Shown: positions 3,277 to 62,982 of the stretch, one piece after another
Numbering within the stretch: the first letter of the stretch is position 1
Layout: each line of letters begins with the position of its first letter
Assembly: GCA_003971905.1 (NCBI GenBank)
Contig: RSEE01000023.1
Coordinates: forward strand, 310,001 to 374,000
Reading direction: 5' to 3'
Source: Moniliella sp. 'wahieum'
Lineage: Eukaryota > Basidiomycota > Moniliellomycetes > Moniliellales > Moniliellaceae
DNA: 64,000 nucleotides
Position numbers and translations under genes: made by a program
Notes under the pieces: generated by a model
Seen by the model: only the letters and a program-made list of their open reading frames with translations
What the model was told of the DNA's origin: nothing
The model's database searches: none

Positions 3277-4448
3277 TTACAGTGTGTCGGTCAAAGTTCC
3301 GACAGGTCGGCCATTGTAGGCCACTTCATACACTTCAGTGAAAAGCGGGTAATCTTGCGTCCGTCCCCTAGCAGCGAGGAAAAGGTGGATCTCCTTTGCG
3401 GTCACTGTACCCTGCAGTTTTTGGCCATTGAGCAGCTCCGCCTCCAACTCATCAAACGACTTGCCCGTCTTGACGAACGCCTCCGCCACCCGTCGGTTCC
3501 TCCCTCCATAGCACGTTGTGATCAAGTCAGCAACTCCGGCGGAGGTCTCGGTAAATGTCTCTGACTTGACAGGAAGAACTCTTGGGCGAAAGTCTTCATC
3601 TCAATCAGCCCAATCCGCATGATGGCGGCCTTGGCATTATCGCCCCAGCCCAGGCCATCCACAAGACCGGCAGCGATGGCCACCACATTTTTCAGCGCAC
3701 CCCCAAGAGAAACACCATACACGTCTTCCACCAGCCCCACCCGGAACTTGGGCGTCTCAAACAGCTTGTGGAACAGCTCTGCCCATGCTCTCTGGCCCTC
3801 TCGGTAGCCAATAGTTGTTTCGGAAAACTTGCCACGCGCCACTTCTGACGCAATGTTGGCCCCCGACAAAGCGGAACACTTGCACCCCAGGTACTCTTCA
3901 ATCACATCGGCAAAAACACGGATGTGGGTCGTCTGCACCTCCACACACCCTTGATCATGGAGATGGCGTGGGAGTGCGGAGCGATATGCCCTTGGAGCTG
4001 CTTGCACAGCCCATCGATAAATTGGTGGGGGTGACAAAGAGAGCAGGTTCGCATCCCGCGCCGTCTCGACGGGGTCGGGGCAGGCATAGATGTTGTTAGG
4101 CAAACGGACACCGGGGAGGTACTTGACATTCTCGTGGTCCGAGTTAATAATCTCGGTGAGCTTGCGGCCGTTGACCTCCTCCTCGTAAACGTACATCCAT
4201 ACCCGCTCTTGGAAGAGGTGCGGGAACCGGCGTACGTTATCTCCCACAATCTTGGCAATGGCGCTGCCCCTACAGAAAGGGGGGGGGGGGACAAGGGTGG
4301 AGTCAGTAGCTATCCTTGGCATGAGCGCAGAGGCTCAGCCTCAGCCACGGTAGAAAGTACACCAGGGACGACGGAGGGAGACGTACCAGTTGCCGGAGCC
4401 AATGATGGCAATCTTGAATTGCGTGTTGGCAGGTGGGACGGCGGACAT
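3277..4448 (-). CDS. GPD1: Glycerol-3-phosphate dehydrogenase (NAD+), cytosolic
   Basis: This enzyme reduces dihydroxyacetone phosphate to glycerol-3-phosphate with NADH, feeding glycerol and lipid synthesis, osmoprotection and redox balance. Exon 1 (4387-4448, starting [20 protein letters not shown]) carries the GxGxxG dinucleotide-binding motif. An intron at 4270-4386 (GTACGT...CTGTAG) splices Trp in phase to give [14 protein letters not shown]. Later conserved blocks are [23 protein letters not shown], the substrate-lysine segment [18 protein letters not shown] and the C-terminal [20 protein letters not shown], then [16 protein letters not shown] and [11 protein letters not shown]. The family identity is secure. 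Four single-base losses interrupt the frame (about 3572, 3943, 4026-4030 and 4036-4038), each in or next to a short homopolymer. The length, about 350 residues, is normal for the family. Confidence 0.93.
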
Positions 4449-6305
4449 GGCGGTGGTGGAGGGGAGGTGGAGAAGGCTAGGAAGAGAATGGTTGGGAGAT
4501 GTCTGCAGCTGGTGGGGGGCAAGCTCTTTTCAGCGGGCGCTTCTAGATCCAGGCACCAAGTCGGAGGCACGGGTATTTGCGAGATGGATGACACGGAAAA
4601 TTATTGCCCAGCCCCCCAACGCCCCCCAGAGGATTAATGTCAGTCAGTCGGCTCCGGCTCCGGCTCCGGCTTCTGGAAGAGCCGGCGGCGCCCGAAGCAG
4701 GGGGCGAGGCAGTCGCGTGGCGCGCCGGATGAGCGATGAGCGCGACCAATACTATAGGCGCATTGCGTTGGGATGTGGGCCCCAATTCCTTGGTTCGGGC
4801 GTGTCCCAGCACCGCACTGAGCATGATTATTGAGCAGCCTGAGCTGTGCAAAGGAGTTCAGCAACCCGTCGACTTTTGAGTGTTGAGTGTTGCGTATCGA
4901 GCACACTGAGGGGCCTGAGGGCCTGATGAAGCACGGAGTTCTCAATGAGTCCGTTGCCAATTGCGCCCAGCGGGCACACGAAAGGCACGTGAAAACCGCC
5001 TGGCAGAGGCCAGCCACAGCCGGAAGCCAGTGGCCAAGAGCTTCAAAGCTTCTCAAGCTTCTATCGTCCAAGCTGATCACATGCAGATCACAAGCTTCAA
5101 GCAAGTGTCCAACAGTGCCACAGGTGCCTCAGTTCCACCCGGCCGTGTCCAACCAGGCCCAACTCTGCCCAACCCCGACCACCTAGCGACCCCACCAGCC
5201 AACCTTCAAAGCGTCAACCCACACACCACCTTAACAGTGAGCGGAACCTGCGTCCAGACTAGTAACTAGTAATAGCCGCCGTCTGCTGCTCCGTCAGCCA
5301 ATGCCCCTTCCGCCTAGGCGGTTAGCAGCCACGTGACGTACGGCACGTGATGCGGATATTGCCACTTCATTTGCACCGATGCCCACAACAGCTGCGACAC
5401 GCACCTGTTTCCGCCCTGCACTGCGGATCTCGGTTGGCTCAGCTGAGATCCAGGGCTAGTATACGAACAAGGGACGAACATGTCCAGTGGACGTGTTGAG
5501 CAAGCGTTGAACATTGAGCCGTCACGCCAATAGCATGAGGAGCTTGAAAACCCCTGGCTGGTGCCCACCACCCACCACACGCCCACCATGTCGGATGGGC
5601 TCAAACTCCTTCTTCCCCCCCAAAGCCACAGTGTGTTTAGCACACTCTCGGACAACTGTTGTGGGACAAGCTGCCAGCAGCGTCAAAAAGCTTCAAGTTG
5701 GCTCACGCCGAACGGCTGGTATGCCAGGTGGCCCACAACAGGATGGCAGTGCGGAACTAATCCTGCATGTCCCAACAGCCTCTATGATGATGTTCCCGTT
5801 CCCTTACTGATTCTCAAACCCTTTTCCGGGCCTCTGGGCCACCAGAACAAGTCAAACATCCCACACCGCCCTCCCACAGTGTGATTTCTGCCCTTGGTGC
5901 TCCATCGACGCCGGCACCCCTCATTAATGTCGACCTGGTGACCAAGACGCGGGAGAGTGTCCGGATGCTCTCCACATATACGTGTCCCAGATGTGGATAA
6001 TAGCGTGCTGGTCGCAGACTCTCCGGGAGCGGGACGTTACGGGGCGGGAAACGAACAGGATGTGATTGTGTGCAGAAGCGTCACCTTTTTAGGATGGGCA
6101 TACCTGCTATACGACATCCTTTCCACACCCCAAGGTGATCATGATGGCCGCCTTCCTCGTCTACTATACGCATGCATAGCTTGCCCCACAGGCTTTCTTT
6201 CAACACTACTAAAATGTTCTTTGCGCGCGGAGTTTCGCTCAGCGCTCACTCAGCTGTTCACAACAGCCCCTTCCTGGATCATGCAGATCATGTATCATGC
6301 AAGCT

Positions 6306-6332
6306 CAACGTTCAACGTTCAACGTTCAACCC
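6306..6332 (+). repeat. AACGTT inverted repeat, left arm
   Basis: Four near-perfect copies of the heptamer CAACGTT end in CAACCC. The reverse complement of the whole 27-nt block is identical to the first 27 nt of the block at 6793-6824, so the two form a perfect inverted repeat separated by 460 nt. Confidence 0.85.
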
Positions 6333-6792
6333 TTCAAGCTTCATGGTACCTGAGTTCTGAGAACCTGAGGTCTGGCCCCTGGGGGCAGGATGACGTTGAT
6401 GATGGTACAGAGTGCGGGGGATACGGATTGGGGGATGTGTGATCGATATGCAACGAATTATTGTGGCGTGCAAGCATATAACGAAGTGCTCAAGATCTGA
6501 GACGAGGTACGGTCTGGTACGGCACCGGTACGGCGTTATATATGTACTCTTGAGTACAAGTGGCGCCGCCGGGTTTCACTGCGGCCTGGTCACCGGTCAC
6601 ACACTGGAGACAAAAATGCCGCCAGGGTTAATCGATAATCGATCGATTATAGATTTAATCGATTAGGTCTAGTTTTGAGACGCGTGATGGAATAGAATCA
6701 GAGTTCTGAGATAGATCTCTCATTATAATGATCCTAGTTACCCAGCGATGTCCTAAGTGCAGTTATGCAGTGGTAAAGAGAAGACAGGAGCT

Positions 6793-6824
6793 GGGTTGAA
6801 CGTTGAACGTTGAACGTTGAACCC
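6793..6824 (+). repeat. AACGTT inverted repeat, right arm
   Basis: This arm starts GGGTTGAACGTTGAACGTTG and contains four TTGAACG units ending in GAACCC. It is a perfect inverted match over 27 nt to 6306-6332. It lies 16 nt before the polypurine tract. Related shorter AACGTT clusters occur near 14550-14632 and 48757-48800. Confidence 0.85.
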
Positions 6825-6840
6825 AGACTGAGGATCACAG

Positions 6841-6982
6841 AAGAAGAAGAAGAAGAAAGAGAAGAAGAAGAAGAAGAAGGAGAAGAAGGAGAAGAAGGAG
6901 AAGAAGGAGAAGAAGGAGAAGAAGGAGAAGAAGGAGAAGAAGGAGAAGAAGGAGAAGAAGGAGAAGAAGGAGAAGAAGAAAG
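6841..6982 (+). repeat. GAA/GGA polypurine microsatellite
   Basis: About 140 nt of almost pure purine on the + strand begins as GAAGAA repeats and becomes a regular AAGGAGAAG 9-mer array. All six frames give meaningless low-complexity peptides (poly-Glu/Gly, poly-Phe/Ser, poly-Leu), so it is not coding. A mirror-symmetric polypurine tract of this length can form triplex (H-) DNA. Confidence 0.9.
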
Positions 6983-7306
6983 TGGCACAAGACCAGAGAG
7001 GATAGGGATGTCGGCGTGGTGTCTGGATGTTGAGTAAGGTGGTCAGGATGATCGATGACCGGGAGAGGTGGCTGACCCATAGGATCCTGGCTATTGACCA
7101 TCCATGCATCCCATATATCTTGTGCATGCAACGATTCTGTCGAAGATGACAGAAAGGGCTTCAACTTGAACGGGAACATAGTATGGTGGGAACTGAAAGT
7201 AATGAAGAGGGTATACTCAAGAGAAGGCTGGATCTTTTTGAAGTACACCATCACGTATACTATTGGCACACCGGCCACGGCCGTTTGCACCAAAAGCACA
7301 AAAATG

Positions 7307-7350
7307 CACCATACACCATACCCCATACACCATACACCATACGCACCACA
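7307..7350 (+). repeat. Short tandem array, 'caccata' unit
   Basis: Roughly six imperfect copies of a 7-nt unit (caccata, with one copy 'ccccata') in direct tandem. No gene association is visible. Confidence 0.75.
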
Positions 7351-7554
7351 TACATCTTTAATTCTTGCAAACCACACGGCCCTATCATGCATCATGCCGC
7401 ATTCTTAAAAACAACTATCAGTGTGGCATGTATAGCGTAGAGTACTAGGGGCAGATATCAACGCACATTCGTTGTGCACGTCTGTTTTTGTATGTAATAT
7501 TTGCTTACACACTGTCGGAATGCTCGAAACTGAGAAGTAGTATCTCCTGTGTTG

Positions 7555-7600
7555 CTTCCATTTCATTGGCAGAGCTTAAGGCTGGGACAGGGGGAACGCT
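7555..7600 (+). repeat. REP-A copy 2, at the 3' end of the family-X ORF
   Basis: Contains CAGAGCTTAAGGCTGGGACA followed by GGGGGAACGCTACGTCTAAAC. On the minus strand it lies just downstream of the ORF at 7655-8068, in the position of a 3' UTR. The same order is seen at 10668 with the second gene copy. Confidence 0.7.
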
Positions 7601-7654
7601 ACGTCTAAACCTAACCGTTCATCTTGCGGGGGTTACTTGGGGGCGCTACCAGGG

Positions 7655-8068
7655 TCAAGGAACCAGGGGGATCGCCAGGATATCAGGACCCTCCGGCTCG
7701 CGCCATCCGGTCCCGTACCCTAGGTAGCGCGTGTGGACACGGATGAACGTGGTTGACATCCGAGCGAGGAACCATTTCCACTGAGACTTGGTAGCCAACT
7801 CCTTCCAATGCGCAAACAACTTGCCCGCTGTCTTGGTGCCGTAGTATCCTCGCGTCGTCAAAACCAGGGGGAAAAACCGCTCTTGAGTGCGTCCCTGGTA
7901 CTTGGCGTTCTTGTCGCATTCTGCTTGTTCAAGCATCCGAAGCAGCTCCTTCTCCCGGCGTTCCAAGGGGGTTGCGGTGCTCTCATGCACCACCCTCTGG
8001 AACGCGCTCTGCGCCTCCAGCATACAGATAGAAAAAAGAGAGTCTGATACAAAAAAATATACTGACAA
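7655..8068 (-). pseudogene. Family-X unknown protein, copy A (probably truncated)
   Basis: I do not recognise this family. The ORF reads AQSAFQRVVHESTATPLE, then RTQERFFP, AHWKELATKSQWKWFLARM and HTRYLGYGTGWREPEGPD. It aligns through its whole length with copy B at 10769-11387. One internal segment (about 7815-7870) is out of frame relative to copy B (LVLTTRGYYG here, GFDDAMILRY there), bracketed by two compensating shifts. The 5' part present in copy B upstream of AQSA is missing here and replaced by an unrelated start. No signal peptide or transmembrane span is seen. Protein-level conservation between the copies, despite nucleotide divergence, suggests descent from a once functional gene. 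It could be a relic of a mobile element or of a lineage-specific gene family. Confidence 0.5.
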
Positions 8069-8758
8069 GGTTCAACCGGATACCGCGTCTCTCATATACG
8101 ATTGTCGGAGCTTCCTATAGTTTCCTTCAGAGCACGGGACGCCACTATATATGGCGGTAAGAAATTGTGATAAAGGGGGCAATATACCTCCACACCCGAG
8201 AGACAGCATGAGTGACAAGACGGAGATGGGGGAAAGGGCGCAGATGGATTGCATACATCTATGGACGCAGAGGAGGTTATGTACCTCCTCAGGAAGGGGG
8301 CACAGTCGAGAGGTGGACACAGGATCTCCCAACTGATAAGAATCACGCCATAGTGCCCATACGGGTCTAGTGGCCAAGGGGCCCCTAGCACGGCGTGAGT
8401 CTGACAATGAGTATGGAATGGAGAGACGAGAGCTAGTCAATTGCTCTCGAAGAAGACACGCGAGACGGATGAGACACAGGGAGATCATGAAAATCCAAAA
8501 AGGGAATTTGAGGCAAGAGAAGTATGTGAGGGAGCAGGGGGAATTTTGCCGGTACCGTGGTCAACAGAATGGGGAAAGGGGAGAGGAAGGGAGGGGGGAG
8601 GGGAAGTCCGGCCGGGGGCGAGATACACAAGGGAAAAATTGATGCTTGTGCCACAACCTGGATGAAAGGTCGAAAACTTGCAGAGATGCAAAAAAGGTAT
8701 GAAGGAGGACAGAGAGGATGACCGAACGAAGGTAATGAGGAAAAAGCCGCATCACACG
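8069..8758. other. Intergenic, purine-rich on the + strand
   Basis: The stretch from about 8400 to 8750 is strongly A/G-rich on the + strand (for example around 8570-8610). I see no supported gene or defined repeat unit. Confidence 0.4.
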
Positions 8759-10400: not shown

Positions 10401-10463
10401 GGGTGTGTGTGGCTATACGATGAAATTAAGGGCTAAACGTTAAAAGAGGGTGCATATAATGGA

Positions 10464-10620
10464 ACCATATCATTTGACAGAGCTTTTTAAACTGCTTAAG
10501 GCTGTGGGACAAAGAAACGCTCTGTCTAAACCGGCCGGTACATTCATCCGATTCAAGCTCTGATGTATATACTTTTTTGCGGGAGCATTTGGGTGGCGGG
10601 TAGCTCGGCAGTGGCGCCCA
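10464..10620 (+). repeat. REP-A copy 3, partial duplicate
   Basis: A diverged copy: 'catatcatttgacagagc', then a small insertion, 'cttaaggctgtgggacaaagaaacgc', and a tail resembling the region next to copies 2 and 4 ('cattcatc', 'gcatttgggtggcg'). It lies directly next to copy 4 as a local tandem duplication and is not followed by a gene body. Confidence 0.55.
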
Positions 10621-10667
10621 TGGTGGGTGCCACAACCGCTCAAAAACTTTTTATCTCTAGACTTCAT

Positions 10668-10730: not shown

Positions 10731-10768
10731 TTCATCTTGCATGTGCTGCTTGGTAGCGCCAACCCCGC

Positions 10769-12718: not shown

Positions 12719-12726
12719 GGAGACCA

Positions 12727-12763
<37 letters not shown>

Positions 12764-15975: not shown

Positions 15976-17474
15976 GTCCATCACTTTTTTCTTTTTTTCG
16001 TTCGTCGACCATTGATCGATCCATGGCCATGCCTTCCAATGCGGGGTGCGCAAGGCACAAGAGTATGAAGTGGAAGCAGCTGGAGGGGTGAGAACTCTGG
16101 AGACTATTTCGGGGAACATTGCACCGTTCCACATTTCTCCACTCATCGATCATCGATCATCTGCATCAGTACCAGTACGTGCCCACTACCCACGCACTCA
16201 CGTACTCCCGTAAAGACGAGGCCATGCTGTGCGTGTGATGCACTTGCATGGCATGGTTGCACTGGGTGGCGCAGCCGGGGGGCTGTGTGGGATGGTTCTG
16301 CAATGAGAATGAATAAGCCATGCACTCTTGCGTACTGCGTAGCCCCCCCTTTGGTACGTAAACCATCCAGGTTTTAGATTTCATTGCCTCCTCCCCAAAT
16401 CCACTGCGGGGGTGCGGGGATGTCTCAGGTTGCTGGCCGCACGGGACGGCTGTCGACTTCCCATCCCTGCCCTTGCCGCAGCAGGCGCGTTTTTTCTGCA
16501 CACAATGCCGTGTGTCAGTGATGTCATCGATCGCCGGCATGGTTCCCTCGCTCCCGGGGTCCAGTTGCATTGCTGTGTGTGACAAGCAGACAGCGTGGGG
16601 CTCCACCGGCCTGAACGCTTACACTTGCCGTCCGCCGGAGACACCGGCGCCTCCGTTGTACCGCTCGGGCGCCTCGCGCGGCCCGCATACCGCCGGCAGC
16701 AGCCGCTGGAGGGACTGCGAGAGCATCCCAAACGGAGCATGCAGGTGGGATGCTGCGTAGCGAGTACCCAGTACTACTGGCTCAGTACTCAGTACGTGCG
16801 CACATGCTTTTAGCGCTACGAGCTGTGGGGGCTATTGGGCGATGCTGGCGCCCTGCTCTTCGCGCTCCCGGCCTAGCGCGTGCCACGTTTCACCCGTCTG
16901 ATATCACACGCCGGAAGCCGCACCTGCCGCACCATGCACCATGCACCATGATGCATGCATGATGCACCTCCGTCACCTCCCATCTACAGTCGCGCGTGCG
17001 CTTGATGCGTGACGTCGCCGCGACACCCAAGTGGAAGAGACACGGTGGCGATGTGGATGTTGGGCAGGTGCAGCTGCGTGGCGCCTGGCTGGCAACGAGC
17101 CGGCGCTTCCTCGCATACTTCTCCCAACGCGCCCAGCGCGGCGCGCAGCGCGGCATTAATGGACTCGCTACGTACTGCTTCCTCCCCCCGGATTTCTGGC
17201 ACAAACCAAAGCCGCCTCGAGCCAGACAGTCGCACTGGATCGGTGTCGACGTTGACCGGTGACCCCCCTGCCTGATGCACCCGAAGCTCCCCGCTTCTGG
17301 TGGGGCACTGGCGCCGTCCGCCGATGACCGGTGATGCATGATGATCGATGTGCACCGGCTCTCTGTGCTCGGCTGCGGTTCTGCGGCCCAGGCTCGGCCC
17401 CGCAGAGCAGCAGCCTGCAGCAGCCCTTTCCCCCTGCGTTCCTGCTGTTCCTGCCGTTCCTCCCGGCAGGCTGG

Positions 17475-17587
17475 CACATTTTCACTCTCCTGCCCCCCCC
17501 CCCAGATTGCATATATACCCCCGCATTCGCCCCCCGCTCTTTTCCCCACACACCCCCACAACCACAGCTTCCCCTCTCCCTCTACCA
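17475..17587 (+). promoter_or_regulatory. Core promoter and CT-rich leader of the sugar transporter gene
   Basis: A TATA-like CATATATA at 17510-17517 lies 70 nt before the start codon. It is flanked by an 11-C run (17493-17503) and followed by a pyrimidine-rich leader ending TCTACCAATG. TATA plus a CT-rich tract before the start is typical of strongly expressed fungal genes. Confidence 0.5.
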
Positions 17588-19332
17588 ATGTGGACCAGCA
17601 CTGCTGGCCTTTCCGGCCGCCAGCTTCAACTGGCCATTACAGTCACCGCCGTCATGGGTTTCTCCCTATTCGGCTACGATCAGGGTCTCATGTCTGGCAT
17701 CGTGAACGGCGACAAGTTCACTCAAGAGTTCCATGCTCTCTACACAGCTTCCGGTCGATCAGAACGCCCCGCCAGACCCTCATGTCACGGCGTACAATAA
17801 GCATGTCTCCGTTCTGCAAGGCGCCGTGACGGCCTCCTACGAAATCGGGTGTATCATTGGGGCAGTTTTCGTCCTTCTCTACGGAGAGAAGTTTGGTCGT
17901 ACCCGCAGTATGGTTTCCGGCGGTCTCATCATCATCATGGGCACTATCATTTCCTGTTCTTCGTTTAGGCACTCCTGGGGCCTCGGTCAATTTGTTACCG
18001 GTCGTGTCATTACCGGTGTGGGCAACGGGATGAACACGGCGACCATTCCCGTCTGGCAATCGGAGTTGTCGGCGGCGCACAACCGTGGCTTCCTGGTCTG
18101 CTTTGAGGGCGCCATCATTGCCGTTGGCACGTTTGTTGCGTACTGGGTCGACTTTGGCATGTCCTACGCCAACAACTCGTCGCAGTGGCGTTTCCCTGTT
18201 TCGCTCCAGATCCTCTTTGCCGGTCTCACCTCGGTCGGTGCCTTGCTCCTGCCCGAGTCGCCGCGTTGGTTTATCAGCAAGGGCCTCGACGATGAGGCTT
18301 TGTATGTCATGGGCCGCCTGCAAGGCTTTGATGCACCTGACGAGAAGGCCATGCACGACTTCGAGATTATGAAGGCCGACCATCGGGCCAAGGACAGCGG
18401 CAAGTCGGCTTGGTCCCAACTGTTCCAGTTTGGAAAGGGCCAGGAATTCCAACGCATGATGGTGGGCGCTTCTGGTCAGTTCTACCAGCAATTCACGGGC
18501 TGCAACGCTGCGATTTACTACTCGACCATTCTCTTCCAGAAAGACCTGAAGCTGAAGGGCAAGCTTCCTCTGATTATCGGTGGCGTGTTTGCGACGGTGT
18601 ACGCACTTGCCACCATTCCCTCGTTTTGGATGGTGGAGCACATCGGCCGTCGCAAGCTCTTCATTATTGGTTACGCTGGGCAGGGTCTGAGCTTTATATC
18701 ACGTTGGGTTGCTTGGCCGGTACTCATGGAAGCAGCGACCGGGAGACACCTAAGGGTGCTGCGGTTGGTCTCTTCCTTTTCATTATCTTCTTTGCCTTTA
18801 CTCTTCTCCCTCTGCCCTGGATCTACCCTCCTGAGATTAACCCGGCCCGTACACGTACTGCCGGTGCCTCGGTCGCGACCTGCACCAACTGGGTTACCAA
18901 CTTCGCAGTCGTTATGTTCACTCCTGTCTTTTCCGATGCCACCACCTGGGGTGGAATCTACCTCTTCTTCGCTCTGATGAACTTTACTGCCATCCCGATT
19001 GCCTACTTCTTCTTCTTCTACCCCGAAACTGCCGGCCGGACCCTGGAGGAGATTGACATTATCTACGCCAAGGCCCACACCGAGGGCAAGTGGGCGTTCC
19101 AAGTGGCTAATGAGATGCCCAAGCTGGACCACGAGGAGATTCTGCGCCTCCAGACCGAGTACGGCCTGGGCAACTCAGGCTCCCCTGCCTACTCGGACAC
19201 CACTCTGACCGCCTTGAACGTGACATGGCCAAGGACACCCCCACTCAACTTGAGGACCGCGACGAGTTGGGCGAGAAGACTGCGCCTACACGTTTGAATG
19301 ACACGGACGCTGACGCGCGCGTCTCTCCTTGA
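17588..19332 (+). CDS. MFS sugar (hexose) transporter
   Basis: A plasma-membrane proton-sugar symporter or facilitator of the sugar porter family with 12 predicted membrane spans. Conserved landmarks are FGYDQGLMSGI in helix 1, YGEKFGRTRS after helix 2, the GRVITGVGNG segment, PVWQSELSAAHNRG, PESPRWFISKG in the central loop, QQFTGCNAAIYYS in helix 7, EHIGRRKLF, LPWIYPPEINPARTRTAG and the C-terminal YPETAGRTLEEID. About 570 residues, normal for fungal hexose transporters, with an acidic polar tail. Three one-base losses break the frame: near 17731 (CCC to CC), 18693-18695 (TTTT to TTT) and 19214-19216 (GG to G). Restoring the frame at the last one moves the stop to 19330-19332. No intron is needed. 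Exact substrate cannot be told; glucose or another hexose is likely. Confidence 0.92.
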
Positions 19333-20319
19333 AGATTCCCCCTCCCTCTTCCCCTAGATATTCCGTGCGGATTTGACGTTCTTGTCAATTGATGATACAC
19401 CTGCTCTTTGCATTTTACACACTGTCTATACACATTCCAGTAGTAATTCCACACGGTATATCGTTCTCGCTGCTCGCCCCATTGCGGTGAACCCATTCCT
19501 TTACGGGGAACTGTGCCCACATTGTACATTGCAAACTCGTGTTGTGTCGCCAATACTGCTTTGCATTCACAGTTGATTGAAGACTATATACCAACTGATG
19601 GTCCAACGTTCAGACTGTCACCGCACCAATGAGCAGCACACCTGTAGTAAGCCCCACATGCTCAGGCGACTCCAAAGATGCTTAGTAGACAATCCAAAAG
19701 GGGTTCCGACTGACGGTTAGGTGCTGAGTATGGCGGCCACCGGTTTTTTGGCCCTCTAGAACAAAACGCTGCAGTGTAGAGTTCGATACGTTTTTGGTCG
19801 CATGTGGTAACATTACCGCAGTAGCGCTAAGCAGGGAGGGGCGAGGACACCCTTGCGTGGAATGCCCGAGGACATGATACCGGATGTGTGCCTTTTTGAA
19901 TAAGTGCATCATTAATTATGCCACTACTGTGTGCCTCCGTCGGTAGTATACTCAGCACTCTCCGACGAGCAAGTCTACAGGAGAGGGTAGCCTGTCACGG
20001 GGCGGGCCGAGACCTTTGGTGGGCCGGCTGCTCATGTGGCAAGGCTGCGTCGGCACCGGCTTGGGCCGTAGTAACGTGTCTGAAGCCTCGGACGGGAGGG
20101 GGCGCAGAGGCGGACAAACACTGTCTCAACTGAGACTGGATAGATGCTGGAAATCGACGCGGCAAGAGGAGGACTCGCGCGACTGGACTGACGGATTTCT
20201 GGAGGACGAGGCCGGAGGAGGAGTCGGACGCTAAAGAGGAGGTTGCCTGTACTGGATCAATTGGCTGGAAAATGGGCAGGAGTCAGACAGGATAGGGTTG
20301 AAAGGACAAGAGGGTTGAT

Positions 20320-20509
20320 GTCACAGTCGGGGCTAAGGCGATGAGGGAGACCAGAATCGGACTACGCCAAGGGGTGTAGCAATCGTTCGTGAGGAAGAAG
20401 CAAGAACAGAGGACATGGTGCGAAGTGGAAGGACCAGGGAACGAGCAAGACGCTCGAGGCGAAGAATTTGGAAATGGGAGCGAGATCAGTCAAACTATGA
20501 CAGTTGACG
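20320..20509 (-). repeat. Dispersed repeat REP-B, copy 1
   Basis: About 190 nt that, read on the minus strand, aligns end to end with 41342-41535 on the + strand. Shared words include CTGTCATAGTTTG.CTGATCT at one end, CTTGCTTCTTCC.CACGAAC in the middle and CGCCTTAGCCCCGACTGTGA at the other end. Differences are scattered substitutions and small indels. Confidence 0.7.
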
Positions 20510-21520
20510 AGAATGGAGGGTGGGGGAAAGGATCCCCATCGACCAGGGGTACAGGCAAGATCAAAAGGGAAACGGATACAAGGGGGGTGTAGAAAGGAAG
20601 ACACGTCAAAAGCGGAGTTGGTCGCCGCAGGCGCGACCGAGAATGGAAAAGGAAACGGGGACGGGGCGACAGTCGTCGCAACGACACTGGAAGCTCGGTG
20701 GCCTTATTTAGGTCAGCGGACTTGGACTTTTGGCCGGTTGGGGGGGGGGGGGCACTATCGCGCGGATACATGGCCCTTCGGGCCACGGTACCATCCTCAC
20801 ACTTGGTTGGCCTGCGGAGCACGCTCTCCTGTGGTGAGCATGTGAGGAACAGGCGGGCCTTTCCACCGCAGCCTGTAACATAGTCGGTCGATCAGTCACA
20901 CAGAGCGGGAGCGAGGTTACCGGTTACGCAGTTACGAGTGAAGCGAAGAGCGGAGCGATGGTGGTGATACAGCGGACACCAACTGCAGAGACGGAGGACG
21001 GGAAAGGCTGGCGCGCGCACAACGCGCGCTATATGGGATGAACTGGCCTACTATTAGCGCCCCTGAGCCATGGCACCGGCCTTTACTTCGGCAAGCTATC
21101 ATATATCACCCCCACGTCATAACACCAATAGTCGTTAGCCTACTGTAGCTCGTCCCAGGACCGCCCAGCCAGGCCAGGGGCCACAACCGGGATTGCGTTG
21201 GGAAAACCCATTTCCTGTCACTACTACATTAGTTTTCCCGGCCGGCGACAGGTACCCTGCCGGCCGCGACGGGCCAGGGCGCGCCCCCCCACAGCAGTCG
21301 CCCTTTGAACCTTCCCACCAACATGCCTGCCCCCAAACCGATGCCATAGGGACGGCCACCTGCAGAAGCTCGTGCTCAGGTCGCAGGGGTACGTTGATAG
21401 GTGGCGGCAGCGAGTATGCATCACGTGAGAGGGGAGAGGGGACGAAGCTGAGCCTCAGCCTTCAGCTGAAGTCGATGAAGCAGAACAGATTATCCGACAC
21501 GGTCGAATTGTCGATTGGCA

Positions 21521-49110: not shown

Positions 49111-52100
49111 TCATCCGTCTAGCCTGGAAAACATAGGAGGTGCAAAAATGCAAAACAGCAGTATATGAGTGGTGGTGAATCCGGTGAAGGGTGGTATGCA
49201 GTGCTTGGGCGACAAAGGAGGGAGACTACGGAGAGTGGGGGAGGGCGTGGGTAGGGGGGTCGCTGTCGCCGAGTGCGGGATGCTCCGTTGGGGCATGGTG
49301 GAAGTGGAGGCGTGTACGGGGCTATGCAGGCGGCTGCGGCTGAGCAGGCTGTGGACTCTGCCCATGTCGTTGGAACGGACGCCAGAAAGCGCACTGCCCG
49401 AGGGAGCGCGCTGCATGCTGCTTGTTGCCCAAGCGCGAGATCTCCATCGAGGTGAATCGGAGCTGGCGGACAAGTACCCGGCCAGCTCTCTATCGGGGGA
49501 TTTGGGCTCGGCAGTTCTCCCGCGCTGAGCCTTGGCCGCCACAGAAGCGGCTTGCTTGCGCACCTTGTCTCGCAGCGCTAGGGCTTGGCGACATTCTGGG
49601 CGGCGATGCCGAAGGAAGCCCTTAAGGATTGTGGTGCGCTGGCTCCAAGCCAGCGAACAACAGCTAGAATCCAATGTCAGCACCAGTGCGTCAGAACAGG
49701 TTTAAGGGCATGAGACAAACCCTTTCTTGAACGCATCCATGACAGCCTCCAGTGTGCCTGTGGTTTTGTCTCAGTTCCAGGGGGGGCGTCTCGACGACCG
49801 AATCTAGAGGTTGACCAGTTTGTGTCCCGCGGGTAGGAGAGGCAAACAAGCGTTTGGGAATGCGAACATACAAAACGTGCGATTCCGTGCTGCCCGCTCC
49901 CGCACACGATGCAATCTGCATCGTGGTCAGGTCCAATCGTCCCATTCGGTCAAAGTCGGGTGCGACTTGCCCGCAGTCTTGTTCTGCCTCGCTCTAAGCT
50001 CAACGATAAAGTGGAGGCATCGCGGTCGTTGCTGCCCGGACGGAGCGGGCTGCCTCTCGCGTAGGGTTGACCCCCTTGTGGGGACTGCTGCCGCGACCAC
50101 CGAAAACTTGAACACTCCGAGCGGTGGGACCACGATCCGCACGAGTCTGAGAATCCGAGTCACGTTGGCTCGCAGAGTTGGGAGAGGGGGTCAATATGTG
50201 TCCGGCCACCCTCAGGCGCTTTTCTCGTCCAACTCATCCCCTTTTTTGTGGCGCGAGGGAAAGACGTATTCAGCAATCTCTTTGCCGATCGAATCTCTAA
50301 TGGACATGAGGGGTGGATATCCACTTCAAATCGATCCACAATGTCGATCCCACCGACGGGAGCTAAGACTGCCAGACGCCTCGATGAACCGTTTGTTCTC
50401 AGCCATGTAGTGGCGTTGGCCTCCTTGTACTTGCTAAAGATGAGGGGGAAGATTGCATCCGGCCGTACGTCCCGTGCCTTCGACGTCACAGATCGACAGG
50501 GCATTGGCGATGGAACTGTCAGTCTTGCTCACACATGTGAAGCTGGTGCCATGGACGTGAAGTTCGGCTAAATGTTCGGCTTCCAGCTCTGTTCGGCGGA
50601 AGGCGAGACGGGACTTGGCGGCGGTACGGAGCATGGTCCAGACAATCTGCTCTGCGTTGGCCTCGAGACGCAACGCGCGCTTTTTGTCGGAGTCCTGGCC
50701 CGCTTGCTGGTCCTGAGCGGTTTTGATAGCGCTCATGAAAAGAGCCAACTCATCAATCAGGTCACGTAAGGTGAGACGTGCACTCCCCCGCGTCAAGCCG
50801 GCCCTGCTCATTCAGAAATGTGTAACTGGCCTCGTAGTCTTCGTGGAGGTGGGAGCTGCCCAAATTTTTTCTTGTAATGACGATACAACGCGGGTCAAGT
50901 TGTGCGAATCGGTAAAGTCAAAGGCCAATAGCAAGGTTTTGAGACGCTCTTGGCGCTGCTTGTAAGCGGGATCACTGTACAAGAGCAATTTGGTTGCACT
51001 GTAGATCGCTCCAAACTGGTCCGCATCGGCAACCACTTTAGCGGGGGCGCGGTTACACGGACCAAATTCGTCTGGTGAATTAGATGTTCTTGTCCTTTGG
51101 GACTTGCATCGGCGTCACAGCCGTATCCTCGTTAGCCAGACGAAGTGGATTGAAATGATCGTACTGCACCATGGGCGCAAAATGGGAGCTAAGCTGGTGA
51201 AAGCCTTCCCAGACGGTTTGATGTTCCTCCTGGTCGAACGGGTCTAGAAGGCCTCGATCGGAAGCACACGGGGTGCATCGGCCTTGGCAACCCATAACTT
51301 GACACTGTCCGCAATGAAGAAGGTTCTGTTGAGAACGTGAGAGTTGATCTCGTGATCTAATGCCATGGGGTCGTGGACGCTGAAGGTGGTAAGACGCAAG
51401 CGCACGGCTGTAAGTACGACGGAAGAGGCCCTGTCCAGATCGCTGCGAAGAATGATCTGCGGACGCAAGATGGCGCAGACAGTACTCTTGCGTATCTCAA
51501 GCTCGGGAAGGATTCCACGATATGGATCGACTATCAACGACGGAGCAAGTGGAGGGGTGCCTTTTCCTCCGTCGTAGTCGCTCCTGCGGAATCGAAGAGA
51601 CGAATCGTGTCATCCAAGAGGGCGCGAAGCATTTCCGCTCCTCCCCCAGGAGCAGCACTGGTATCGGGTTTCTGCCCCAAACGCAAATCTTGGATACTTT
51701 TGAGGGCAGCTGCTCGGAGGAAAATGAGCCTGAGCCCGACGCATACCTCTGGAAACGTAGTACCGGAGGAGGATGTTCCTTGTACTCTCCGTCCAGAACA
51801 AATGGGGCAATGCACCACATAACGATTGGAAAAGCGTTCCCAATGCCCATGAAGCTCGCTCAGCTCTCGTCGACGAGCCACCGTTTCGTCCGGTACATAC
51901 GTCGGAACGGTCCACAACCCATCCGAATGGACTTTGCTCTTCGTGCGGAGAAGATCATCCGGATCTTCCTGGTGTTTCTGGAGTTTATGCTTACGTCGAT
52001 GGGTTTGCACCCCGCAGCCGTCCATTTGGGCGGGAACGAGTTCAGTAAAGTCACGAATAATGTGAATCGATCGTTGGCGGTGAGCCGTCTTCGGCTCCGT

Positions 52101-55100
52101 ACGCAGTTCAGCAATTCGCTCATTTAGCAACTTTTGTTGGACCTGGTCCGGACCTAGAACGAATTACAATGTTAGTACTTTATTATCCGGATCGATCATG
52201 AGATGAGAGAAGACGTACTGTGGCATTGGCCCATCAAGCATCTGTGTGTGCCTTCGTGGCCAAACTTGCTCTCGCCGTAGGCGCCCAAATGAGCATGCTC
52301 TCCTGCCTCTTTGGCAGCGGCGAATTACCCTCCTTCATGGCACGTTCTTGATCTGCTTTGATCTGAAGTTCAATCTCTCCGCGTAGGAGTGCGGCGGAAG
52401 TAATTGGATGCAGGCCACTCCAGAACCTTCTCGCTACGAGCGCGAGACCGCAACTCGGGTACTCGGCCAATGCGTGAGCCCAATTCCACGTAATCCCGCA
52501 TGTCCCACCAACCACTCGAATCGCCTTGCGACTCGTCTGGACCATCTTGCAGGAATACCGCGCCGCCGAGTCGTCATTAAAATCATCGGCTTTGTCCCCC
52601 AACATTGCAGCCCAGTGGGCCGCCCGACCGAGGTCGAGAATCCTGGCCGCACAGACCCGCATCTCTCCCCCTCGGCAATCAACCTCAGCAGCACTAATGG
52701 GCTTGTGGAGTCCAGTCTGGTTTTTCCGGCAGCGTTCTTGAAAAACGTTTCTTGCTGCCGCTGGTGCAAATCAACATTGAACGTCTCCACCCGCGCCTTG
52801 AGTCCGAGGAACAAGTTCGCACCCCGTCGGTGCCGCGCCGCATCGTGCTGGAGGTAAATGTGGGAGAAGAACATTGGTGCCAGGTCGATTCGATACTTGA
52901 TCGTTGCGCAATGTTGCCCAAACTTCGGGGAGGGGGAAGGGAGCGAAGGGAATAATGGGCCCGCACGAATGGGAAGACTGAGGCACTATTGAACAGAGCG
53001 ACCCAGGCAAAAAAGTGAGCAGAAACGAGGGGCGTGACATACAGACTGTTGGTGTCCTCCCTTCTGTCGAGCGAGCGTGAGAGCGAACCGAGAGTGAGAG
53101 ATGGACATGATGGTGTCTCCATCCAATATAGGAGTCACCGCGTGCAGTAGTAGAGAGCGTATCCAGATATTCGGGGGTGCGGGGAAGCACCTTCCAATGG
53201 GATACTGTGTTGAAGAAGCGGCATGAGCGATAAAATGCGTTGGGGCTTGTACACTTGGGATGGCTCACGCAATCTGGCCCACTGCAGGTCCGTTCCAGAA
53301 CAAAGCCCACCCCCATACCACGTTTCCATTGAGCGACCACACCACCTTCTGTAGTGGTATGGGGGGCAAATCGATACGATGTGGTCCATCTTGTGAAGGC
53401 ACACTTCCTTCAGTTGCAATCGAGCCCGGTCCATGCGGACGGGCCCTCAGGGAAACCAGGCCGCAAGCGAGAGGGGTAGCAAAGACGTTCAGATCAGGAA
53501 TAGCCAGTTCATAGCTCCAGAAAAGATCTGGATTACCTCGCGCTCTGAGTTTTGCGGGGGAGCAATTTGGACCCGCACTCCACCAGACCATACCTGGACC
53601 CAGCCAGCCCATGGCCTCGGAGGTTATATGGATCCCGACTTCCTTTCTGTATGACCAAAACAAGTTAGTTCCAAAATCCGACATGTGTGAGAAGACGCGT
53701 ACCAAGAAAAGCTGCACAGCCGAAGGCGCATCCACCAGAAGCTCAAAGCTCCCATGGAGAATGAGTGGGATCTTATCCCAGAACCCGATTTTCGGGCTGG
53801 GATCGAGTGGAGGCGAGCTGAATCCGTCAAATACCTTGGTAACTTCCGCAATGGCGGGGACATGGACTGCCCCCAAGCTAGCTGCAGGGGCGCGGTAGAC
53901 CGGATTTGAACAACGGGGTGGCCAAACATCTTGGTTGGCATAGTGACCTTCGGAATTTGCAGGACATAGTCTGTCCCGCAGGCACCGATACAGTCGGCAT
54001 GAACGAGGCAGGCTTGGAGATGACAAGTAGATCGCTCATCGCCCATCTGCTCAGCAATACACAGATCCGTAACAAGATGGAAAGCCGCAGGTGAGTGGGG
54101 TTCTCCTTTTGGTGGTCGTGCCGGGTCGAACGGTTCGATGGTGTCCGGAAGAACATGCACCAAGGGCAAAGGGTAGTCGCGCAAGGAGCATAGCCACTCA
54201 TCCATCTCCCACTCAAGGTGCATGGGTATAAAAATGGAGAATGTCAGCCCCTCTGGAATGGGATCGCCGAAGGAATCGATATAGTCCCGGGCCGATGGCT
54301 CTGTCGCTGCAAACGTGTAAGGTTGGGACAAACGTAGGTCAACATGCGTCATAGTCGAGCGGAAGAGAGGGGAACAGAGGTGCATATCCCGAAGATGCTG
54401 CCAAGGACGTTGCGAGTTAGTGCTCCCGGCATCCCAGTTGGCCATCACGGTGGGCGCAACGGGATAGAGTCCCCGCAGCTTGGCTCGAACCTGTTCCTCC
54501 TTCTGTCGCACCTCATCCTTCGCGTTATTGGCGACCTTGATCCATTCCTTCGAGTTGTACTCCTTCAGTCTATAGTGACGGCTTCAATCGTCGCGGTGAC
54601 GGAATCAGTGGAGTTTGAGGCGTCATCCTCCGATTCGTAGAGCGACCCAGGCTCCGGGGTCTCCCTCTCTGATATGGAAGAGGTGCTCGACGCAGGGTGT
54701 CCAAAACCTTTTGTTCGGAGCGGTGATACTTTCCGCTGAGCAACGATGGAGCTTCCTGAACGCTGCAGAGAGGAGAGAGTCCGGGAGTGATGCAGTTTGT
54801 GCTTCTCCCAGCCAAAGGAAGGCCTATTTCGAGCCGATCCGGCCGGATTCGCCGAACGATGAGAAGAGAGAAGCGCTTCCATCTCATCCTGGAAAGCCGC
54901 TTCTCGCTCTGCACGGTAATGCGCTTCATCTGACCCAACGCGCTGGTAGATGCGCAGAAAAGAGTCCAATAGACTGTCCTCCATCTCGATCACAAGAGTA
55001 CGAAGGCGCAAACGTATCGGTGGAAGCGGGAGGGGTTTCATCTCGCTGGGCGCAACCTTGTAGTCCAACTGTCCCAATAGGGCTTCATGGGCCAACTGCT

Positions 55101-58100
55101 TGGTGGCCTTGACTCCTACCGACGTGCCCACAACCACTTCGTGGAAAACGAATTGGAACGGAATGCACAGGTGCGCATGTTTGCCCGTCACGAGCAATGA
55201 AGGCCAATGCTTGGTTTCCTCCACCATCTGTTTTGCTGGGCCAAGTGGCTCCGATGGCTCGGTGAATGTAGTGGATGAAGCGGTGATGATATTGCTCGGA
55301 TCTAAGCGCAAGGTGGACCAATCCACCTCAATCGCACCGTCATCCCAGCCAACCAATTCAGCCCACTCTAGCTCATCCAGAGGCTTCCAAAGGCCCATCT
55401 TGTTTTGGTGCACAGCCCCAACCAAATGACGAAACTGGAAGAGAAAGTTAGGTAACTTGAGCGCCCCATTCTCGCCCCTAGGAAGTGGGAAAGACAAGCT
55501 CTGATGCGCCGAGATATCAGCCACTCCAAAGAAGAGATGAAGCCCATTGGGGAGACGAATCGGCATGTCCAGTCTTCCGAAGGTTAAATCGAAGGAAACG
55601 GATCTTGGTTTAGAACTAGTGGATATGCCATCCCTTTCGTCTGATTCGGACTCTGGCTGGACTTGCGAAGAGAATGGAGCTGCCGTCCCAGAAGACGAGT
55701 CCATTGCCTTTTTCGCTGCCACCCATACCCTTCGCACAGCCGCAAGGGCCATAAATAGAACATAGGTGTTGGCCAGCTCCGTCACAACGGTAGTGCAGGC
55801 TGGGAACCGGGAGCGGATGATGATTTCGTTCCCCACGCCCGTGGAAGGCGGAAGGATCACGTCAAAGGTGCTTAAGGGGACGTGCAGGAGCAGGTGGGGG
55901 CGATGCTCAGTCTCAACGTCAGGGACAGAGGGGGGCCCGGAGGCCTTCCTTCCCGACGAGATGGGTCGATCGCCATCACATTCAATTCATACATTGTTGA
56001 ACGTATGAGTAAGGCTTCTCCAGTACTCTGAGACTGAAAAAAGGCGGCATCCAGCGCGTCGGGCTCCAAGTTCAGTTGGCGTCGGCTTTGCTGGGAGGTA
56101 AACCACGCCTCGCTTTCCCGGGGAGACGTACGGACCGCTGCGAGCTCCATTCGCCAGCGGGGAAAGAGTGTGCGGATGCCGGTGACAGAACTGGTTAGAG
56201 GCGGGAGGGGTGGGCAAAAGGGAGGAAGCTGGTATGCCAGTGTAGTGGCGGGGGCGAAACCTGGTATGGGAGTTAGCACAGCCAAAACAAGAGGAAGGAA
56301 GAACAGCGTACCATCCCTGCATGCCGGTGGAGGCGGTGGCGTTGAGGAATTGGTGGGTGTCTGAGGGGAAGTATGCTGACCGGCAAGGTGAGGGCCGCGT
56401 TTCGGATCCAGCGCCGCACACCTCCCATCAAAGTCTAGGAGATTGAGGTTAATATAGAATCGATGGGAGTGAGAGGGAACCTCGTCTGCTGCGGTACCGA
56501 CCGTACGAGCAGGGGTTCGAACTCGCTTGCAATGGGCGGGCGTGGAGGGCGTGGCACGGATGTATGGGCTTGGCGCACCAGCTCCATCATACGTCCTGTG
56601 GCAGGCGAGGTTCTCCAATACTAGCCAAGTGAATGGGGTATCGAGCTTGACCCTATCGCACGAGTGCCAGTAAGGGTACCCTGGGTATGGACGTGGATGG
56701 AAGGCTGCCGACATTGGTCAACAGTAGACCCAGCCGTCATGTTTCCCTCAAGCAATGCCTCGAGAACGTCGAGGATGGTCTCATTTTCCGTCAAGCGAGC
56801 TGCGTCGAAGGAGAGACGAGAGAAGCCAGCAGAAACTATGCTGCGGGATTGAAGGATTCCCTCACGGGGTGGAAGGTGCTGGATGTCCGCATGCAACTCC
56901 CTCGCCCTTGCGATGAGGCAGGTCCGATCTGGTCCACTGACGGTCCCCTTCACCTCTCGTACCGACAGTTCCGCCAGAAGTACAATCCTAAATTTGGAAA
57001 CGAGGCGGTCTACCAGAAGAGCCACAGGGTCGCCACGTGGATTGTTCTTCGAAGACGAGGGGTGCTGCCGCATCATCCGTATCAAAGCAGTGAGGAGGCT
57101 GGTATAGTCGTCCGGCGGGTGATCCAAAGGAAGGGACCAAAACCCATGAATCTTGGAGACTCCCACCTCAGCGTGAAGCAGGGCGGATTACCGTCGTTCG
57201 GAACAAGAAGCTGTTCCCTTAAGAGTCTGCAGGGATCCTAGGGGGTTACCTGCGAGGAGATCGATATCCGTGAAGAGATAAACGCGGGGAAGAGACGGAG
57301 GTGAACGTGGTCTAATGACCAGGTTCCGATCAAATCGATAATCCGCGGTTGCTGTTCGCTCTTGCGCATTGCCTGGTTTAGTTCCACGCCCATCGAAACA
57401 GTCCGCCTTGTTTCTTCTCCAAAAGCGCGGACGGTGTGAGCTGAAAGGATGACGGGCCAACATCGAAGGATAAGAGAGATCCATCGTGAGACCCCCCCTT
57501 GACAGGGTTGGGCGAAGTCACTGCATATAACAGGCGCACGGCACCCAGCCGGACGTCGGACTGATGCACAAGCCGCAGCCAGGCAGGAGCACAGACGTCT
57601 CCTTGAAAAGCTCCGACGCAGGGGGGGTATCATTAGAAGCGGGGGAGGGTACACTTTGCCTCCTCCGTTGCGCTGACGCTTTGGCCAGACGAAGAAGAAC
57701 AAACAGGGCATTGATATCAACCACCACCGGTGGTAGGGTCACATCGGCTCCAATGGCGCGCAGCGAAGCCTCAAACGGCCCCCAAGAGAAGGAAAAACGT
57801 TCCTCCTGTTCTTGACCACCCAAACTTTCCTGTCCCGCCGCTAGAGGCGGATCAAACCCAAAGCTCAACACCGGTTCGCCACGCCGACTTTCGTCTTTTT
57901 CCATGGTCGCAAAGCGATGGTTGTGTAGATGTCGTCTTTATGAAGACGTGGCCTTTATCTGGGCAATGGACGACGGAGCGAGACATCGGCGAGTCCGGGA
58001 GAGAGGTGGAATCTGCCTCATCGATTCCACCCCAAGAGCTGCAAGTGCCCTTCCAAGAAGAACCAGAGGAGAACGACCAAAAGTGAGTGGACTGGGCAGA

Positions 58101-58904: not shown

Positions 58905-59341
58905 GCTGGCCTCAGCAGCGACGAAGGAGGCAGCGCAGCAGGCGGTATGTGGCAGGCGATGCGAGGCAGGCGATGGAAGCGCAGGTGGGGTGGACAGCTA
59001 CGCGCACACGATGTTGGATGGTGGGGGCACACCTCGAGCAACGCCAAGACGGTCTGTAAGCGGCCGCATTACAGCCGAAGCCACGCTGAGCCTCAGCGCT
59101 GCGCTCGGTGAGTGCTCAGTACGCGCAGTTCAGCCTCGCTCACGTTTTCATCACCTCTAGCTGAGCAAGCTGAGTCCCTGCCATGCACTTGCCTGCTCGC
59201 ATGCCGCATATCAATGCCCTTCAAATTGAACTAGGAATCTGCGCATGACGTAATCGGACCCTCTCTTATTCCTCCGACTCCCGCCCCCCCTTGACCGTCT
59301 TCGCGTCGGCCCATCCTTGGTCCGCACAGACCAACACGAAA
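58905..59341. promoter_or_regulatory. Shared divergent promoter region of FMP27 and MOG1
   Basis: A 437-nt gap between head-to-head start codons, with no ORF or repeat of its own. It must contain both promoters. No TATA box is obvious on either side. Confidence 0.4.
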
Positions 59342-59946
59342 ATGCCCCAAGTCTACCAGCTCTTTGGCGGTGCCATCACGGCAGACTATGTGGCCCCTGA
59401 TTGACGCAAGCGACCTACGCCAGGTGCCCGACACTCAGGAAGTCTATCTTAGCCCGCATGACGGCGCGAGCTATGTCTGGATGTGCTCCAGCCCTCCCTG
59501 CCCGCCACCTCGACGCCCGAACAGGCCATCAAGCAGCACTTTGACAATCTCGCCCACGACAACGATGCCCACTCGGCAGCGGTGCACAAGGTCTCCGCAT
59601 GCTCCCCCGGGCCAGCACAGGAGGAGGGAACACCGACCCCGGTTCTGCTCGAGGGGGTGCAGTACGTCAAGAAGACGGGGCAGGGCAGGCCGGTGGACGA
59701 GGTCGGGATCTACCTTGCTCTCTGGCGTCTCGCCCCGCGCAAGAGTATGATCTCCTCTTGTCACTCAACATTCCTCGGCCTCACCATGCTCAGGGCAGTG
59801 TTCCTGAGCCCGACACCGTTCCCGACCCCACGGCTGCCGACAAGGAGGCCGGCGCGGTGACCGCCGAAACAGAACAGCTGTACGTGGCCCGGTTCAAGCA
59901 AACTGTGGCCTCCCTCGCCATCCGCGACTGGGGCTTGTTCGTATAA
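59342..59946 (+). CDS. MOG1: Mog1-type Ran-binding nuclear import factor
   Basis: Binds the Ran GTPase and promotes nucleotide release and nuclear protein import. Start MPQVYQLFGGAITADYVAP at 59342 matches the family's N-terminal YxLFGGAI. Then, after one lost C at 59394-59397, LIDASDLRQVPDTQEVYLSP is the most diagnostic family motif. After one lost G at about 59479 comes VLQPSLPATSTPEQAIKQHF. Then PVLLEGVQYVKK, DEVGIYLALWRL, EYDLLLSLNIPRP and the C-terminal FKQTVASLAIRDWGLFV. About 200 residues, normal length. A third frame break lies near 59740. It is transcribed divergently from FMP27. Confidence 0.88.
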
Positions 59947-61289
59947 GTACACCCCAACCTGCAATCTCGTGGCACCTCATCCATCAGTCCCGATGCACTT
60001 CATCAATCATCCTGCACCAGCCCCTCTGCCGTTTCCCTTTCTCCAGCCCAAGCTACCTTACCTGTTTGCTTCGGAGCTTCAGTCCTGCATCGGTACTCTA
60101 TACACCGCATCTTGCTCTTCGTCTTCGGGCGTGATGAACAACTATAGCTCCGCGCATCGCGCATCGCGTATCCGCATTCTTGTAGACCCGTACAGACAAG
60201 GGCCCGTATGGTAAGCGTTTCTTTAACGAAGTGGAACAAGGTGGACCGGACCTGGCGCCTCAGAGCCCGGCGCGTAGGCTATACTGTTGTACTTGGAGAG
60301 GAGTGCGGCTAAAACTTAAATGTGTGCGTCTCAGCTTCCGCGCCGCCTGTGTTCGGATATTGGCGGAGGCGGAGAAATGCATGACAGCGGACAAGGCAAC
60401 GGGTCGGAGTGCCCATCTACCGATCAATCTACCTGCCCTGGGCCGGGTTACTCCCTGCTGCGCCTACCCATCTGTAGAGTAGCCTGTCGGTAACCGTTCT
60501 TGACACGTCGGTGCGTGTGAGTACCGAATGATAAACGACGAAAACAGCAGAGACAAGAACGCATCGGAGTTCCTTGGTCTGAAGCTGCTTGAAGCTTGAA
60601 GGGCTTGAAGCTCCTGAGTACCTGAAGCTCTGAATCTTTAAGATCTCTCAGATCCCACGCTTCAAGCTTCAAACTGCAACGTTCAAGGTACGTTCAAGCT
60701 TCAAGCTCTTGAAGCTGACAGAAGGGGCCTTGCCCAAAACGGAGTGGGTCAACAAAGCACGTCAGAGAGCCCGCCCCACCCAGAAACGCATCGCCGGTGC
60801 ATCCCCCACCTGCTTGCATTGATATCCCCGCACCTGCCACACCCGCCCGTCAGACCCTCTTGAAAACAGCATCGACGGAAGTACCCCTCAAAAACCCCAC
60901 ATGGCCACTGGGGCAATATGAGCGCTATATTGTGTACTAGTCCGCTGACCCTCAGCCCACACCCGGCCGGCAGCAGCCGGTAGAAGCCGCGGCGAACCCT
61001 AGACCAACCCCTTGGGAACAAGTGAACTGCCGCCAGCGCCTCAGAGCGCGGCTCGGCGCGGCCTAGCACGCGGCTCTCTCGGCCATTTTGCCTCTTGCAG
61101 TACGAAATAGTGACCAATAAATAGGCGGCAGTCCCAGTTGTTTTAGCTCTCGATATGGACTCTCTTTGAGAGATAAAAACCCTCTCTCGGTGGGCACCTT
61201 GGGAGCGAGGGTGAGTATTACCAGCCCCGCCAACTAACCCATCTAATTTTCCGCAACCATCACTCCCGCGGTCTCAATCTCGGACGCTG
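59947..61289. other. Intergenic region with AAGCTT palindromes
   Basis: No supported gene. A cluster of CTTGAAGCTT/GCTTCAAGC words at 60581-60716 could fold into several hairpins. A CCAAT-like ACCAATAAATAG at 61113-61124 may belong to the promoter of the following transporter. Confidence 0.45.
60581..60716 (+). repeat. GCTTCAAGCTTGAAGC-type palindromic repeat cluster
   Basis: At least eight AAGCTT or GAAGCTT words in both orientations within 136 nt, together with one AACGTT word. Any pair can form an inverted repeat. Composition is similar to 5040-5100 and 11998-12036. Confidence 0.65.
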
Positions 61290-62982
61290 ATGGATGTGGA
61301 ATCCTCTCCTCCAACACAGGAGGAATCCAGCTGTGAGCCTCAATGTCTGTTTGACCGTATGCCCTCGCTGTCCTCACAGGGAAGCAATTCTGGGTCCTCC
61401 TTAAATGTGGCCCAAGCCGCGAGCAAAGACAACGAAAAAGAATCGGACATGGCGCCCGTGGTAGTCCAATGGGATGAGGGGGAGGCGGCCAACCCACTGA
61501 ACTGGAACAAGACGTACCGCTGGTTCCTGTCCTATTGGGGGGGGTGCTTGTTGGGTGCTCCACCTTCATCTCCACTGTGCCAAATGGAACCCTGGATGAA
61601 ATTCTCGCCGAGTTTCACGTCTCGCACGAGGTCGGGGCCTTGATCATCAGCTTGAATGTCTTGGGCTTTGCGCTGGGTCCGTTTTTTTGGACCATTGAGC
61701 GAGCACGTGGGCAGGAAACCCGTCTTTCTTCTTTCCACCCTGGGAACTTGTTTGTTTTCCCTTGGCTGCGCCCTCGCCCCTAACATTGGAGGCCTACTCG
61801 TCTGTCGTTTCCTTGGAGGAGTATTTGCCGCTGCACCGTATGTCTCTTCTACTTCACGGCTCTTGTTCCACCGCAGTAAACAATTAACCAACCCTCTTTC
61901 CTTTCCAGACTCGTTATCTCGGGATCCTTATCGGAGATCTATGGAACCCCATTGGGACTCAGATGATTGGCTATGGGGTCTTCCCATCGCTTGGACCCTC
62001 GCTCGGGCCTCTGGTCAGTGGGGCAATCTCCGTAACAGGCACCAGTTGGAGGTGGTCATTCTGGGTGGCGACGATGTTCAGTGGGAGTATGGGTGTTATC
62101 GCCGTCTTCTGTGTGAGAGAGACGTATGCTCCCATTCTATTAGTTCAGAAGGCGAAACGGTTACGAAAAGAGTCGCAAACAACAGTAAGATATGTAGCAC
62201 CAATGGAGCTGGTGCCACTCAAACCCAGGGAATTGTTGAGCAAGACGCTTCTCAAGCCTTTTATCATGTTGGTCCAAGAGCCTATGCTAGTTGGCTGCAC
62301 ATTTTGTTGAGCTATGCTTTTGGTCTCCTCTACCTCATCTTTGAGTTTTATTCGTCGTACCGGGAAATTTACGGGCTAAACCCATTACAAGAGGCGCTAT
62401 GCTTTCTTCCTTATCTGGTCGGATCCCCCTCTCCTGCGTCGCATTCTACACGATCGTCGCGCGGTACCAACGCGATCTGGATGCCGCCAAGGCCAAGGAC
62501 CCAGACGCCAAGCTTCCTCCCGAAAAGCGATTACCCATCGTACTCGTATGTGGGCCATGCATGGCTATAAGTTTCTTTTGGTTCGGCTGGGCCAGTTACA
62601 AAAAAGCGTACGGCCCTCTCCCCCCACTCTTTCTCTTCAGAACAAAAGTCTAACCAATGGACTGCTGTACAGGACGTTATGGGCGCCACTATTTAGTGGA
62701 CTGCCACTCGGGTTTGGCATTGCAAGTGTCTTTCTGGGCACCATGAACTATCTTGTGGAAACCTACCGTTCCCACAGTGCGATCGCTCTTGCGGCCCAAA
62801 CCACGGTTCGGTGTTTGGTAGGCGGCGGGTTCATTCTGTTTGCAAACCAAATGAAGGCGCGCTTGGGAGTTCATTGGGCGTCCTCCCTGTTGGGCTTTTT
62901 GGCACTGCTTCTAACCCCCATTCCGTTTGTTTTGTGGTTGTATGGAGCCAAGCTCCGGTCTTGGTCCAGATTTGCCTTCTAA
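61290..62982 (+). CDS. MFS drug/polyamine exporter, DHA1 family
   Basis: A proton antiporter of the 12-span DHA1 group in the plasma membrane. A charged cytoplasmic N-terminus ends in EAANPLNWNKTYRWFLS, the typical NPxNW entry to helix 1. Then VPNGTLDEILAEFHVS, GPLSEHVGRKPVFLLS (motif A), an intron at 61838-61908 (GTATGT...TTCCAG) joining FAAAP to LVISGSLSEIYGT, then GPSLGPLVSGAISVTGTSWR (motif C-like), RETYAPILLVQKAKRLRKES in the central loop, VARYQRDL and PEKRLPIVLVCGPCM. A second intron at 62608-62672 follows, then LPLGFGIASVFLGTMNYLVE and the closing YGAKLRSWSRFAF. About 510 residues. Frame breaks occur near 61540, 61681, 61949, 62292 and 62425. Exact substrate unknown. Confidence 0.87.

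Follow-up and report, generated by a model that had tools for sequence, protein, structure and literature searches.

The window that we analyzed is a 64,000-nucleotide stretch of contig C23 (C23:310001-374000). The assembly to which it belongs totals 69,493,810 bases in 223 contigs, and its gene content and rRNA suggest a fungus. It carries genes for NAD-dependent glycerol-3-phosphate dehydrogenase (GPD), a sugar transporter, Hobbit/FMP27, MOG1, and an MFS transporter (Table 1), along with two tRNA genes. A dispersed repeat lies at positions 20009-20861; among the best 40 of 908 candidates scored, its pieces are ~80-87% alike and are found on many contigs. A UNC93-like gene proposed for the locus around 31869 was not confirmed, as the two frames found there on the matching contig, C8, have no Pfam match at 0.001.

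Table 1. Genes and stretches of interest in the window, with positions counted from its first base
Feature	Position	Strand	Basis
GPD, main exon	3277..4280	-	Pfam and seven-copy alignment
Sugar transporter, with frame changes near 17746, 18693, and 19202	17344..19294	+	Pfam; C8 comparison
Kilobase densest in one-base shortages (27)	49501..50500		Window/C8 alignment
Pieces of the Hobbit/FMP27 gene	49679..55986	-	Pfam; C8 comparison
Nearly identical stretch of both alleles	51001..58000		Window/C8 alignment
MOG1, in two pieces in the window	59397..59737	+	Match on C23 and C8; on C8 the gene is a single open frame of 231 aa
MFS transporter, broken in the window; 495-aa open frame on C8	61214..62700	+	Described only

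Alignment of the window with C8:620001-700000 shows that the two stretches are collinear. They differ by 1,785 substitutions in 61,280 aligned bases; this and the other window/C8 counts leave out alignment blocks of fewer than 1,000 columns (part of window positions ~6,983-8,406, and small gaps between blocks). A 3-kb probe, for which the best 40 of 908 candidates were scored, has two full-length places, one on C23 and one on C8, that are 92% alike; its remaining matches within that set are pieces of the dispersed repeat. GPD and MOG1 lie almost equally far apart on the two contigs. MOG1 is a single-copy gene in most fungi, and its matches in the assembly are confined to C8 and C23. We infer that the two stretches are alleles, or belong to two nuclei, of one organism. 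A mixture of two species was considered and rejected, since alleles account for two full-length probe places at 92% likeness. Both tRNA genes match their C8 copies apart from the flanks and are therefore uninformative with regard to error.

The preliminary description of this DNA held that nearly every clear gene in the window is frame-broken by the loss of single bases. The breaks themselves are present in the window letters, and each of the 27 listed C8 frames (at least 250 aa, with at least 60% aligned to the window) differs from the window by one or more indels whose length is not a multiple of three. These frames correspond to fewer than 27 genes, because some overlap on opposite strands. 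Stop-to-stop frames of at least 400 aa number five in the window, compared with 11 over the corresponding stretch of C8. The details of the description were partly wrong. When its 11 named sites were compared with C8 within 15 bases, six proved to be one-base shortages in the window (3572, 4026, 4036, 31869, 59479, and 19214, the last of these 12 bases off). The other five comprise a two-base shortage at 59394, a two-base excess near 3943 (aligned at 3942, in a CA repeat), a one-base excess that aligns at 17746 for the site named as 17731, and two sites, 18693 and 61949, at which no length difference was detected within the 15 bases. At 18693, the Pfam match of the sugar transporter switches frame in both alleles; either both were miscalled or the break is truly common to both, and a possible shared true change at this position counts against reading the breaks as error.

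To place indels and substitutions on a common scale, we divided the window into 500-base bins, of which 124 of 128 were used (those with 300 or fewer aligned bases were left out). Fourteen bins are nearly identical between the alleles and contain 8 substitutions vs 44 indels in 6,986 aligned bases, whereas the other 110 contain 1,763 substitutions vs 641 indels. Indels in near-identical copies are thus out of proportion to substitutions, as would be expected of indel errors in a consensus sequence. The same pattern extends across positions 51001-58000, whose 6,988 aligned bases include 19 substitutions together with one-base events in both directions (26 shortages and 7 excesses), and it is pronounced in the 1062-aa C8 Hobbit/FMP27 frame (window position ~52436 on), which differs from the window by three substitutions and 15 frame-changing indels. 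The alleles are almost without substitutions over positions 51001-58000 while being ~3% apart elsewhere, suggesting loss of heterozygosity, gene conversion, or recent exchange. In the 11 C8 frames of at least 400 aa, substitutions fall 99/101/211 on the three codon positions (211 of 411 on the third). Selection on the proteins is therefore visible in sum, although not in every frame; the lean to third positions is missing from some (e.g., 28/34/38). Yet 111 of 124 indels in these 11 frames are of one or two bases.

Shortages in the window exceed excesses, but the claim that almost all events are losses is too strong. In the 11 long C8 frames, one-base shortages outnumber one-base excesses by 72 to 22, and two-base shortages outnumber two-base excesses by 12 to 5; across the whole window the one-base counts are 226 to 156, and in the nearly identical bins 28 to 7. 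An excess in the window may equally be a shortage in C8, and picking long C8 frames biases the comparison toward C8 as the intact allele. Window frames of at least 250 aa, chosen in the same manner (18 frames), likewise yield more shortages in the window than excesses, 56 against 32, and so the choice of frames does not fully polarize the events.

We found no support for the assertion that losses are specific to short homopolymers. Of the 226 one-base shortages, 97 fall at unrepeated bases (122 expected), and the range of "1-7" originally given for the runs is uninformative because even an unrepeated base counts as a run of 1. Observed-to-expected ratios for the 226 shortages in runs of 1, 2, 3, 4-5, and 6 or more are 0.8, 0.76, 1.34, 2.98, and 4.1, and runs of 7 or more account for only 7 of them. 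This dependence on run length is weak; base-calling error limited to homopolymers would predict a strong one. Weak homopolymer dependence is not the profile generally expected of nanopore error, which counts against reading the breaks as error. We infer that a homopolymer-limited base caller would account for it no better than a long-read consensus that had thin coverage or was left unpolished. No clear base preference that might indicate a modified-base motif was apparent around 117 shortages. The shortages are patchy, with a variance-to-mean ratio of 2.5 per 500 bases.

Similar indels are found outside the window, contrary to the notion that the error is a property of this stretch. GPD is represented by several paralogues ~80% alike, for some of which two alleles are clear (C1/C25 and C8/C23). 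Seven copies on seven contigs were aligned over 1,010 columns, leaving out the outer 30 columns and the copies on C11, C102, C127, C138, C130, C29, C42, and C134. The alignment contains 12 indel events, 11 of them shortages, and all 12 are private to a single copy, as consensus error would predict. Six of the seven copies are affected: C23 has four private events (one-base shortages in three cases and a two-base excess in the fourth), C8, C28, and C44 have two each, C1 and C33 have one each, and C25 has none. The second allele pair, C1/C25, differs over ~9 kb by 230 substitutions and by 55 and 42 one-base gaps. HSP70 is matched unusually often, by 86 pieces spread over dozens of contigs (e.g., C6, C21, C83, and C74), some of them clustered. 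Using the 86 HSP70 matches together with the 8 of 19 GPD matches that are paired on one contig, and taking only junctions with a nucleotide excess below 40 (a cut-off that excluded none), we identified 25 frame jumps between adjoining pieces, on 15 contigs. Twelve junctions have an excess of -1, four of -2, three of +1, and one of +2, and the remaining five have other values. Some of the HSP70 copies may be true pseudogenes.

Untranslated sequence is hit as well as translated sequence. Between the rRNA copies on C21 and C37 there are 26 substitutions and 54 gaps over ~3 kb; 30 of the gaps are one-base gaps in C21, and 12 are one-base gaps in C37. The copies on C33 and C37 differ by four substitutions and 11 gaps over 1.7 kb. 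Against the Rfam model, the C21 18S sequence has six one-base gaps in part of the alignment, several inside conserved stretches; this copy is close to the end of its contig and might be a degenerate unit, which counts against the reading as error. The 5.8S rRNA has 14 copies, several near contig ends, and short spacers were seen at one rRNA locus. Together, the private GPD indels, the HSP70/GPD jumps on 15 contigs, and the rRNA gaps show that the indels reach both alleles, untranslated RNA, and contigs beyond this pair.

Of the biological explanations, the true decay of one allele or parental subgenome into pseudogenes fares best, and we regard it as very improbable. It would accommodate the surplus of window shortages in the near-identical bins and a MOG1 gene that is broken in the window and intact on C8. 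Decay of one allele should leave the other intact, yet on C8 the GPD copy has private shortages and the sugar transporter is split as well, although MOG1 is open. The third-position lean of substitutions in long frames, the predominance of indels over substitutions where the alleles are nearly identical, and the occurrence of the same frame jumps on other contigs also argue against decay. A true mutator, adding one-base indels to the genome by slippage of the mismatch-repair type, is more improbable still. It is compatible with indels outnumbering substitutions where the alleles are nearly identical and with the enrichment in runs of four or more, but slippage does not sit well with so many shortages at unrepeated bases and so few in runs of seven or more, and a living cell would have to manage with broken GPD, HSP70, and rRNA copies.

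Programmed frameshifting, transcript editing, or codon reassignment could in principle keep the genes working as they stand, and the in-frame TGA codons of some HSP70 loci hint in that direction. Nine HSP70 loci contain 17 in-frame stops, of which 16 are TGA; these face many different residues, and reassignment of TGA was rejected on this ground. The confinement of indels to individual copies of one gene and the lack of a base motif around the 117 shortages weigh further against this group of mechanisms, and since rRNA is also hit, none of the three would explain the indels there. We consider it scarcely credible. The same applies to the broader proposition that the cell truly carries these frame-breaking indels, in both alleles and in some rRNA units, either as a mutator lineage or with a genome whose transcripts are repaired. 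That the breaks are unrecognized introns is hardly tenable: both window tRNA genes were called with introns and GPD seems to have one near its start, but the excess at the 25 HSP70/GPD junctions lies between -10 and +5, too short for an intron.

The private GPD indels, the HSP70/GPD jumps, the near-identical bins, and the 18S gaps strongly support the original suggestion of sequence error rather than biology. Judged from the sequence, the frame breaks are very probably (probability of about 0.95) small indel errors remaining in the consensus, in an assembly that holds both alleles, or nuclei, as separate contigs. They fall on genes, rRNA, and other DNA alike, at a density that varies along the contig and with shortages favored. 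Their source may be a long-read consensus in which reads were split between the alleles and were not corrected by accurate reads, and thin coverage could produce the dense patches of indels.

Related problems are known from other assemblies. A report on an allele-specific assembly of Trypanosoma brucei describes indels as the most frequent long-read errors, which produce false frameshifts and affect protein-coding annotation (PMC8445201). Indels break reading frames in both cases; part of the error described there arose from collapsed alleles, whereas here the alleles are separate contigs. A study of diploid-aware long-read assembly describes primary contigs and haplotigs, polished in three rounds (PMC5632298), and there, as here, two contigs represent one locus.

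The frame breaks in the window are an ordinary assembly artefact that is not confined to it. When no reads are at hand, comparing allele with allele inside one assembly provides a cheap test for such error. Gene and pseudogene counts taken from this assembly are unreliable, beyond C23 as well as on it.
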